34,567 bases of DNA from NCBI GenBank assembly GCA_005882115.1, contig VBEG01000080.1, forward strand, positions 1 through 34,567. Reading direction: 5' to 3'. This DNA is from Chloroflexota bacterium (GTDB lineage: Bacteria > Chloroflexota > Dormibacteria > Dormibacterales > Dormibacteraceae). The notes beneath the pieces were generated by a model. It was not told the origin of the DNA. It made no database searches and saw nothing but the letters and a program-made list of their open reading frames with translations. Shown here piece by piece: positions 2,271 through 32,822 of this stretch. A program made the position numbers and the translations under genes. How positions within the stretch are numbered: position 1 is the first letter of the stretch; each line of letters starts with the position of its first letter.

Positions 2271-3398
2271 CTAAACGACCTTCGAAATCTCCAGGCGCTC
2301 GTCTATCTCGCGGCTCAAGCGCGACGCGCCGTACTCCTGCCCGACGTGGTGGTGATACGGAACCCCGGTGAAGAGGTGGTGCGACCTCGTCGGGATCGTG
2401 GCGCCATCCGCCCACTCCTTTCGCTGCAAATCCATGTAACCCTCTTCTTTGTCGTGCTTCAGGCCTTCGAGGAGGACCGACATCCCATGGCCGGCAGCGT
2501 GCTGCAGCGCGAGCGTGATGAAGATGAAGCCGATGCCCAGCAGGCCCAGCTCGTCCCAGGTGATCGGGTTCTTCTCGTTGAACCACTTGAACGAGGACGA
2601 GTAGTTGAAAGCAAACCTCGCCTTGGGGAAGCGCTTGCGGATCTCGGTGCAGAAGGTCTCTGTCGGCCCGCGCTCGGCGGTCGGAAACTCGCACCACAGC
2701 AGGTCGGGCACGCCGCTGTCCAGGTAGCGAAGCCCGCGATCGATTGCCAGCTCCAGCCCGCGCTTGGACTCGGGAGCCTCTGTTGCGGACACGCCGTCGG
2801 TGCGCGCGATGATGATGAAGTCGGGGTGGCCGAGGTCGTCGGCAACGCTGCGCATCATCTTCAGCTTGCCGACGAATTCGTCCGCGGCGATGAGCGCCTT
2901 GCCCGCGATATGGCCGCAGCGCTTGGGCATCACCTGGTCCTCGAGGTGAGCGGCCGCGACGCCCGCGTTGAGGTACAGCTCGACCGTGCGCTGGACGTTG
3001 AAGAGGTTCCCGTATCCCGCGTCCATGTCGACCACCACGGGCGGGATCTCGAGGTGGGTGGGCGGGACCTTCTTGTCGGGGTCGCCCATCGCCATGGTCA
3101 GCTGGAACTTGCGGAGCGCGCTCACGCTTCGGCGCGCGCCGTCCGCGATCTCGACCGACGAGTAGAGGTCCATGTCCGTGGTGCCCAGGTGGCCGATCGC
3201 GAAGGAGTAGCCGCTGAAGTAGACGGCGTCGAAGCCGTGATACATGACGAGCTGGGCGCCCATGGGGTCGTACACCCCGGGGGCGAAGACGTAGGGCTTG
3301 GAAGCCAGCATCCCGCGCAACCGCCTGCTCGGCGATTCGTTGCGCGACGCGGGAACCTTGAAGCCGGCCGGAAGCAGTGGAGTCGAGACGAGATCCAT
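2271..3398 (-). CDS. aceA: Isocitrate lyase family protein
   Basis: A 375-residue TIM-barrel enzyme of the isocitrate lyase / PEP mutase superfamily. The catalytic signature is PKRCGHIAGK; metal-binding acidic residues occur in DMDAGYG and HLEDQ, and there is an ICL-like substrate segment FNYSSSFKW. The reaction expected is cleavage of isocitrate to glyoxylate and succinate (glyoxylate shunt). The length is between methylisocitrate lyases (about 300) and E. coli AceA (434), close to the short ICLs of haloarchaea and Chloroflexi. Methylisocitrate lyase is the main alternative, since KRCGH also occurs there. The start ATG 3398 has an ideal AGGAGG six bases upstream (3405-3410), which overlaps the stop codon of a tiny upstream reading frame. 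A LysR gene lies upstream on the same strand. No malate synthase is visible in the window. Confidence 0.8.
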   Translation of the reverse strand: MDLVSTPLLPAGFKVPASRNESPSRRLRGMLASKPYVFAPGVYDPMGAQLVMYHGFDAVYFSGYSFAIGHLGTTDMDLYSSVEIADGARRSVSALRKFQLTMAMGDPDKKVPPTHLEIPPVVVDMDAGYGNLFNVQRTVELYLNAGVAAAHLEDQVMPKRCGHIAGKALIAADEFVGKLKMMRSVADDLGHPDFIIIARTDGVSATEAPESKRGLELAIDRGLRYLDSGVPDLLWCEFPTAERGPTETFCTEIRKRFPKARFAFNYSSSFKWFNEKNPITWDELGLLGIGFIFITLALQHAAGHGMSVLLEGLKHDKEEGYMDLQRKEWADGATIPTRSHHLFTGVPYHHHVGQEYGASRLSREIDERLEISKVV

Positions 3399-3408
3399 CT
3401 AGGGCCTC

Positions 3409-3498
3409 CTACTCGTTTTCGTGATCGCAGTTGCAGGGTTCCGGGCATTCGCACTCGTGCTCGGTCTCCTGTTCCTGCGATAGGTTTTCCTGATCCAT
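3409..3498 (-). CDS. 29-residue acidic Cys-rich leader peptide or microprotein (candidate)
   Basis: A tiny frame from ATG 3498 to TAG 3409-3411, directly before the isocitrate lyase-like gene. The peptide is very acidic (E/D-rich) with four cysteines spaced CxC-x3-CxC (C16, C18, C22, C24; core CECPEPCNC) and histidines at 14 and 26. It has no Shine-Dalgarno, but a TAGTTT box lies 7 bases before the ATG with TTGGAC 18 bases further up, which would give a leaderless or one-base-leader mRNA. Its stop TAG forms the first bases of TAGGAGG, the lyase ribosome site, so translation of the two genes could be coupled. It could be a regulatory leader, a metal-binding microprotein, or a chance frame. The composition and placement favour a real frame; the function is unknown. 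Confidence 0.5.
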   Translation of the reverse strand: MDQENLSQEQETEHECECPEPCNCDHENE

Positions 3499-3505
3499 AG
3501 CTAAG

Positions 3506-3535
3506 AAACTATCAACGAATCCGATATACGTCCAA
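3506..3535 (-). promoter_or_regulatory. Predicted promoter of the mini-peptide / lyase unit
   Basis: On the minus strand TTGGAC (3530-3535) is followed after 18 bases by TAGTTT (3506-3511), 7 bases before ATG 3498. Spacing fits a housekeeping sigma-factor promoter with transcription starting at or next to the ATG. The same TAnnnT-to-start distance is seen at other starts in this window (8998, 11375, 28143). Confidence 0.45.
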
Positions 3536-3556: not shown

Positions 3557-3571
3557 ATCGGAACAACCGAT
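3557..3571. promoter_or_regulatory. Candidate LysR operator (T-N11-A palindrome)
   Basis: ATCGG-N5-CCGAT is a perfect interrupted palindrome with the LysR-box form T-N11-A (T3558, A3570). Its centre (3564) is about 65 bases upstream of the inferred transcription start near 3499, the classical position of a LysR recognition site. It lies between the end of the LysR gene and the lyase unit. Confidence 0.45.
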
Positions 3572-3596: not shown

Positions 3597-4517
3597 CTAT
3601 TTGGTCCCGAGCAGCTCCAGGAACGCGGCCACGATGCCTTCCGGCTTGCCGGCGTCCCGGCGGCGGTAGGCGACGATCGTGTTCTGCATCGGGGGCGCGT
3701 CCAGCATTTTCACGGTTCGCAGCGTCTTGCCCGCAAGCTCGCGAGCTACAGCCGTGCCCGGAAGAAGTGCGACGCCAAGGTCGCGCTCGACCATCTTTTT
3801 GGCCGCCTCGATGGAGTCGAGCTCCATCAAGCCGCGGAGGCTCACTCCGGCCGAAAGAAACGCTCCCTGCGTGATCTCGTAGTAGCTGGACGTGCGGTCG
3901 AACATGATCAGCTTCTCCGCGGCCACCTGGGCCATCGTCACGTTGGAGAGCTGGGTGAACGGATGATCTGGCGCGCACACCAGGACCAGGTCCTCGGTGT
4001 GGAAGGCGCGCAGCTCCAGGTCTGGGTGCCGGATGGCACGCCCAAGGCCGATCTGGACTTCGTCGCGCAGGACCAGCTCGACCACGTCTTCCGAATGACC
4101 TGTGCGCACGGACACCTCGACTCGAGGGTGTGCGGCCACGAACCGCTCCAGCAGGTCCGGGAGCACGTAGGTGCTGACCGCCGGCGCGGCCGCGATCATC
4201 AGGTGGCCCGCGGAGGCGGTCATCACCTGCTCCAGCGCGTCCCGGCCGTCGACAAGGGCGCGCAACGCGCGCTCGGCGAAAGGGATCCAGGCGCGGCCGG
4301 CGTCGGTCAGGCGCATGCCGTGTGGCGTGCGCAGGAACAGGGGCGTGCCGAGCTCGCGCTCGAGGCCCTGAAGGCGTGCGGTCAGCGTCGGCTGGGTGAT
4401 GAAGAGGGCCTCGGCGGCCCGGCTGACGCTGCCCCGCCGGGCGACCTCGAGGAAGCCCTCGACCTGGACGAGCTGGATGCCACTTGGCTTCCCGTTACGG
4501 GATTCTTCTATGGCCAC
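3597..4517 (-). CDS. LysR family transcriptional regulator
   Basis: A 306-residue LysR-type regulator. An N-terminal winged helix-turn-helix spans about residues 15-73 (FLEVARRGSVSRAAEALF, TQPTLTARLQGLE), then a linker helix and a two-lobed periplasmic-binding-like effector domain (about 100-300). The usual LysR length is 290-310. It lies upstream of, and in the same direction as, the isocitrate lyase-like gene, with 98 bases to the Cys-rich mini-frame holding palindromes of LysR-box type. It is therefore a natural candidate to control the glyoxylate-shunt-type enzyme. The effector is not known. The first about 12 residues are unlike the family, so a downstream start is possible. Confidence 0.92.
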   Translation of the reverse strand: MAIEESRNGKPSGIQLVQVEGFLEVARRGSVSRAAEALFITQPTLTARLQGLERELGTPLFLRTPHGMRLTDAGRAWIPFAERALRALVDGRDALEQVMTASAGHLMIAAAPAVSTYVLPDLLERFVAAHPRVEVSVRTGHSEDVVELVLRDEVQIGLGRAIRHPDLELRAFHTEDLVLVCAPDHPFTQLSNVTMAQVAAEKLIMFDRTSSYYEITQGAFLSAGVSLRGLMELDSIEAAKKMVERDLGVALLPGTAVARELAGKTLRTVKMLDAPPMQNTIVAYRRRDAGKPEGIVAAFLELLGTK

Positions 4518-32138: not shown

Positions 32139-32219
32139 CGGACCGCGAGGCGCCGGGCTCACGGCTGGATCGTAGTACGCTTCGTGAGTTCTCTCCGGTA
32201 CGAATTCAGAGGTGTGCCC

Positions 32220-32822
32220 ATGAGCTGGACAGTCGAGGGAACCTACTTCGAGAACTGCAACTGCGACTTTGCCTGCCCCTGCACGATAACGAGCTTTGCG
32301 TCGCCCGGGACGGAGGATCGCTGCCAGGTCGTCCTCGCCTATCACATACAGCGAGGCGAGATCGACGGCGTCGATGTCAGCGGCCACAGCGTCGCGGTCG
32401 TCGGCGACGCGCCGGCCAAGATGCTCGATGGGAACTGGCGGGTCGGTCTGCTCATCGACGACCAGGCCTCTAAGGAGCAGGCAGACAAGCTGGCGGGCGT
32501 CTTCTCCGGGCAGATGGGCGGCCCGATGGCGGCCCTCGCGCCGCTCATCGCCGAGGTGCTCGGCATCGAGCAGCACCCGATCGAATTCCGGGACAACGGC
32601 CACAAGCACCACCTGAAGATCGGGGGCGACATCGCGATCGATGTCGAGGACTACGTGCCTGAGGGATTCACCGAGCCGACGAAGCTTGTCGGTGTCTTCC
32701 ACCCGTCCAATACGACGCTGACGATCGCCAGGCCGACCTCGTCTCGCATCAAGGCCTTCAACATGGAGTTCCATAACGACGGCAAGAGCGCGTTCTCGGC
32801 GCCCTTCCGCTGGTCTGCCTAG
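32220..32822 (+). CDS. DUF1326 domain protein
   Basis: 200 residues. The family hallmark NCNCDFACPC (C13, C15, C19, C21; spacing CxC-x3-CxC) lies at the N-terminus. The beta-rich body has YHIQRGEIDGVDVSG and DNGHKHHLKIGGD. It sits 9 bases before a DUF2182 membrane protein; this pair is found together in many genomes. The clustered cysteines and histidines suggest soft-metal binding; the function is unproved. Confidence 0.9.
   Translation: MSWTVEGTYFENCNCDFACPCTITSFASPGTEDRCQVVLAYHIQRGEIDGVDVSGHSVAVVGDAPAKMLDGNWRVGLLIDDQASKEQADKLAGVFSGQMGGPMAALAPLIAEVLGIEQHPIEFRDNGHKHHLKIGGDIAIDVEDYVPEGFTEPTKLVGVFHPSNTTLTIARPTSSRIKAFNMEFHNDGKSAFSAPFRWSA

Follow-up and report, generated by a model that had tools for sequence, protein, structure and literature searches.

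The 29-residue open reading frame that precedes the isocitrate lyase (ICL) gene in the window, as we term the whole 34,567-nt stretch of DNA analysed, is on comparative evidence a real coding gene, and points to an undescribed family of microproteins tied to the glyoxylate shunt in Chloroflexota and some Actinobacteria. Because its C-terminal tail is kept beside shunt genes in many taxa, we read the product as a tiny shunt-linked protein rather than a local cysteine switch, and assign a probability of roughly 55% to a trans-acting microprotein encoded in the glyoxylate-shunt operon. The shunt enables bacterial growth on acetate and fatty acids, and the family would supply, for bacteria that are mostly uncultured, a candidate partner of the isocitrate branch point that can be tested directly.

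A LysR-type regulator is followed on the minus strand by the 29-codon frame and then by ICL, whose ATG begins at 3398. Pfam agrees with the sequence-only reading, which had named an adjoining LysR gene. The features used below are as follows.

3409-3498, minus strand: microprotein gene, 29 aa plus stop, MDQENLSQEQETEHECECPEPCNCDHENE, translated from 3412-3498 with the stop TAG at 3409-3411 (translation, orthologues, pN/pS).
3409-3453, minus strand: C-terminal module C-x-C-P-x2-C-x2-D-H-E-N-E-stop (pattern match, invariant columns).
2271-3398, minus strand: ICL, PEP mutase/ICL superfamily, 375 aa (PF00463 and PF13714 above cut-off).
3405-3410, minus strand: ICL Shine-Dalgarno AGGAGG, overlapping the microprotein stop (sequence).
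3597-4517, minus strand: LysR-type regulator, upstream on the same strand (PF03466 and PF00126).
3530-3535, minus strand: -35 box TTGGAC (TTGGAC, TTGACT or TTGACG in f1 and f3 loci).
3506-3511, minus strand: -10 box TAGTTT, 7 nt before the ATG (putative leaderless start, from comparison).
3557-3571, minus strand: dyad ATCGG-N5-CCGAT of T-N11-A form, a possible LysR-type regulator site (sequence; binding presumed).
32211-32819: DUF1326 protein, 203 aa, with the stretch CNCDFACPC (Pfam).

At the composition of the window, 0.01 ATG-started frames of up to 40 aa with CxCx3CxC are expected and one is seen; for the C-terminal module, the expected number of chance matches is 0. When 110 genomes of the class were searched, 26 from the genus and family of the window, its own among them, gave matches at E <1e-4, with the microprotein directly before ICL wherever both genes were retrieved. 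Nearly all close relatives with ICL carry the frame before it, and genus members without a full-length ICL are also without the microprotein. In a comparison of 18 loci, pN/pS for the final 16 codons was 0.045 (pS 0.447, pN 0.020), compared with 0.149 for ICL (pS 0.486, pN 0.072), and Asp/Glu swaps were the sole replacements. Recurrence in relatives and purifying selection on the amino acids thus bear out the earlier proposal that the short frame before the lyase is a gene.

Conservation is concentrated in the tail. The N-terminal half is variable and its residues hardly align, while C16, C18, C22, D25 and H26 are invariant even in distant members, and P19 and N28 reach at least 90%. The resulting core, C-x-C-x3-C-x2-D-H, always sits a few residues from the stop codon, even in matches of a profile with no stop requirement, and its Pro, Asp and His, like the Asn that follows, are conserved as strongly as Cys. 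The motif originally described, CxCx3CxC, therefore gives way to CxCx3Cx3H: three tail Cys are kept as claimed, whereas the fourth is confined to family f1, and is missing from some f1 genera.

To assess the range of the family, 84,980 genomes, one per species, were scanned with a DNA pattern for C-x-C-P-x2-C-x2-D-H-[DEG]-N-[DE]-stop that had been verified on known loci. The scan yielded 63 loci. Their contigs bear the labels Chloroflexi, Dormibacterota or Actinobacteria (Thermoleophilia among them), except for one labelled Steroidobacteraceae (L153), which carries a Chloroflexota-like LysR-microprotein-ICL locus and is probably misbinned. Leaving aside two loci cut off by contig ends (L119, L160), a shunt gene (ICL, aceA, ICL2-type lyase or malate synthase) neighbours the microprotein in 60 of 61 informative loci; L126 has none in the stretch examined. 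A profile built from the final 22 residues matched in 42 of 400 Chloroflexota genomes, and ICL was present in 41 of these 42 versus 167 of the 358 without the microprotein (Fisher p = 1e-11, for genomes that are not phylogenetically independent). Most ICL-bearing Chloroflexota in this sample are without the microprotein. Among 396 Actinobacteria genomes the microprotein is rare, with strong matches in two (G455, G572) and a weaker third (G503), also before aceA.

In the ICL tree, microprotein-less lineages (G020/G032, G025/G034 and G023, with a degenerate copy in G029) nest inside one f1 clade, so the microprotein looks ancestral there and dispensable. The G029 locus (L024) keeps a frame at the same place with a GTG start and without any Cys, MDRRFRSSSSQRLLAAEASEARAAGRDA. 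In three genus members (G004, G008, G010) malate synthase is present and ICL was not found; incomplete assemblies and another glyoxylate source are possibilities. The window's own genome has malate synthase, and PrpD was not found in it, so its lyase likely serves the glyoxylate shunt rather than the methylcitrate cycle. A methylisocitrate lyase had been raised by the KRCGH motif, and the same two observations speak against it.

Gene order varies across the family. The microprotein precedes three types of lyase, namely PEP-mutase-type ICL, classical aceA and an ICL2-type lyase of ~770 aa, and it also occurs as microprotein-aceB-aceA (G174), aceA-microprotein-aceB (G572), aceA-aceB-microprotein and ICL-microprotein (G300); in Thermoleophilia it comes after aceB, is led by a Shine-Dalgarno of its own and has a GntR-like gene downstream. 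Such variation is incompatible with a cis leader as the common function, whereas a product acting in trans can explain all of these orders. It weighs heavily on the cysteine-responsive attenuator put forward in the sequence-only reading, by which ribosomes on a leaderless frame would slow at Cys codons under a shortage of cysteine or charged tRNA-Cys, with an effect on ICL translation or transcription. In other taxa the microprotein follows malate synthase, ICL or, once, isocitrate dehydrogenase (IDH), and the Thermoleophilia copies are Shine-Dalgarno-led. The stop/Shine-Dalgarno overlap (TAGGAGG) that had suggested translation-coupled control is genuine in the window and recurs in L002 and L016, but it is not a conserved layout: the gap between the microprotein stop and the ICL start ranges from 4 to 122 nt, and an RNA consensus fold gave no compensatory pair and no covarying structure. 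Coupling as the function of the frame is thus not supported, and we regard the attenuator as improbable. Where the gap measures 45-122 nt, a GGCGTTAGC-like motif occurs ~20-40 nt before the ICL start; the loci with this motif between stop and ICL are L003, L005, L006, L009, L012, L013, L015 and L020.

The regulator is variable as well. A LysR gene adjoins the microprotein in most Chloroflexota loci, on either strand; a GntR-like gene takes the downstream position in Thermoleophilia, and several aceA loci have no LysR. We therefore consider it unlikely that the microprotein is a metal or redox sensor partnering the adjacent transcription regulator instead of an enzyme, even though the frequent LysR neighbour fits that idea and a Cys/His tail would suit sensing: regulator type and position change, and the shunt enzymes are the constant partner. 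Near the microprotein start of L123, L151 and L126, all from Actinobacteria, we noted GGATCCGA, possibly a shared regulator site; as a shared operator it was set aside because the sites are too few to interpret.

Turning to transcription, the microprotein start is probably leaderless in families f1 and f3, because a TANNNT element ends 7 nt, or at a few loci 6 nt, upstream of the start codon at every matched f1/f3 locus, in a search that required the -35 box and not the -10 box. This comparison agrees with the earlier placement of the ATG at the mRNA 5' end, and puts the presumed transcription start close to 3498. The promoter, described there as well formed, emerges from the comparison of f1/f3 loci, whereas a simple sigma-70 scan found none. 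In most of 7 malate synthase loci examined from the same genomes (L244-L250), TA(G/A)ATT likewise precedes the ATG by 7-8 nt, so leaderless starts look usual in the clade. The exact ATCGG-N5-CCGAT dyad is present in L001, L003, L005 and L006 and partly kept in others.

Genus g10 lacks the microprotein, and there ICL has its start codon in that position at the same promoter. Loci L026 and L030 (G025, G034), with the microprotein deleted and an apparently leaderless ICL at the same promoter, amount to a natural deletion experiment. Position can matter, as the g10 arrangement and the Cys-less frame held in place in G029 suggest, and a leaderless mini-frame might load ribosomes in the start region with its peptide irrelevant. 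A tail conserved at the amino-acid level and Shine-Dalgarno-led copies at operon ends make such a translation enhancer very improbable.

Returning to a microprotein acting in trans, we propose that in this clade the LysR regulator would switch on a single leaderless mRNA for microprotein and ICL. The variable, presumably disordered N-terminal part would carry the tail, whose three Cys and His (CxCx3Cx3H) would either bind a metal, for example zinc or iron, or act as a thiol switch; residues of ligand type (C16, C18, C22, H26 and D25) are invariant. The tail would then dock on one of the branch-point enzymes that handle isocitrate and shift the balance of citric acid cycle and shunt. Of the two proposals in the sequence-only reading, a metal-binding microprotein is the better.

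AceK kinase acts at the isocitrate branch point in enterobacteria. That the family, spanning two phyla, directly controls this branch point (ICL, malate synthase or IDH) through a metal- or redox-dependent C-terminal tail, as a peptide counterpart of AceK, is a tentative extension that we hold to be possible at somewhat less than even odds. ICL residues showed no parallel or excess change in microprotein-less lineages versus control lineages, and the lyase is therefore not confirmed as the binding partner. A narrower version, in which the microprotein would inhibit or modulate IDH specifically and so fill the role of AceK, follows branch-point logic and gains from G410, where ICL was not found and the microprotein follows a gene for NADP-IDH (above the cut-off of the curated model). 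The G410 microprotein is a weak profile match (E 2.5e-4), however, and the link stands on this one genome, as IDH was not found beside the microprotein at other loci; we think this version rather unlikely.

Six family members gave no significant match in Pfam and NCBIfam, which illustrates how a gene of ~30-60 codons escapes protein family libraries. A PDB sequence profile search gave no match, and AlphaFold2 returned a low-confidence model of a 42-aa member with no secondary structure (pLDDT 72, pTM 0.22). Our literature search retrieved no relevant paper, either about a microprotein of the shunt or about small Cys-rich proteins together with ICL. Two likenesses fell below significance: a CPxWCxxDH-like stretch in DUF6907 (PF21848; E 1.8, 9.6 bits versus a gathering cut-off of 26), and the CxC...C...H ligand order of the SWIM zinc finger (PF04434; E 0.061, 13.3 bits versus a cut-off of 19.6). 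The DUF1326 protein of the window belongs to an unrelated family; its CxCx3CxC spacing does equal that of the microprotein, as first remarked, but the match is probably coincidental because the fourth microprotein Cys is found only in f1.

Among characterized systems, CP12 is a small protein that regulates Calvin-cycle enzymes and is redox-sensitive (PMC3906501). The resemblance, a small protein with conserved Cys devoted to one pathway, is one of analogy only; the pathway differs, the tail here is CxCx3Cx3H, and partner binding by our microprotein is presumed. In layout, the frame compares with the leaderless Cys-rich upstream frames of mycobacteria; one of these, which has a cluster of cysteine codons, precedes cysA2 and has been proposed to act by attenuation (PMC4633059). 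In the window's class the microprotein frame is likewise short, apparently leaderless and first in its operon, with Cys near the C-terminus, and it is kept in relatives. The differences bear directly on the attenuator discussed above: the window's family has CxCPxPCxC in place of a run or cluster of Cys codons, with usually three separated tail Cys outside f1; the gene that follows is ICL rather than a cysteine gene; operon order varies; and the non-Cys residues of the tail are conserved as strongly as its cysteines.
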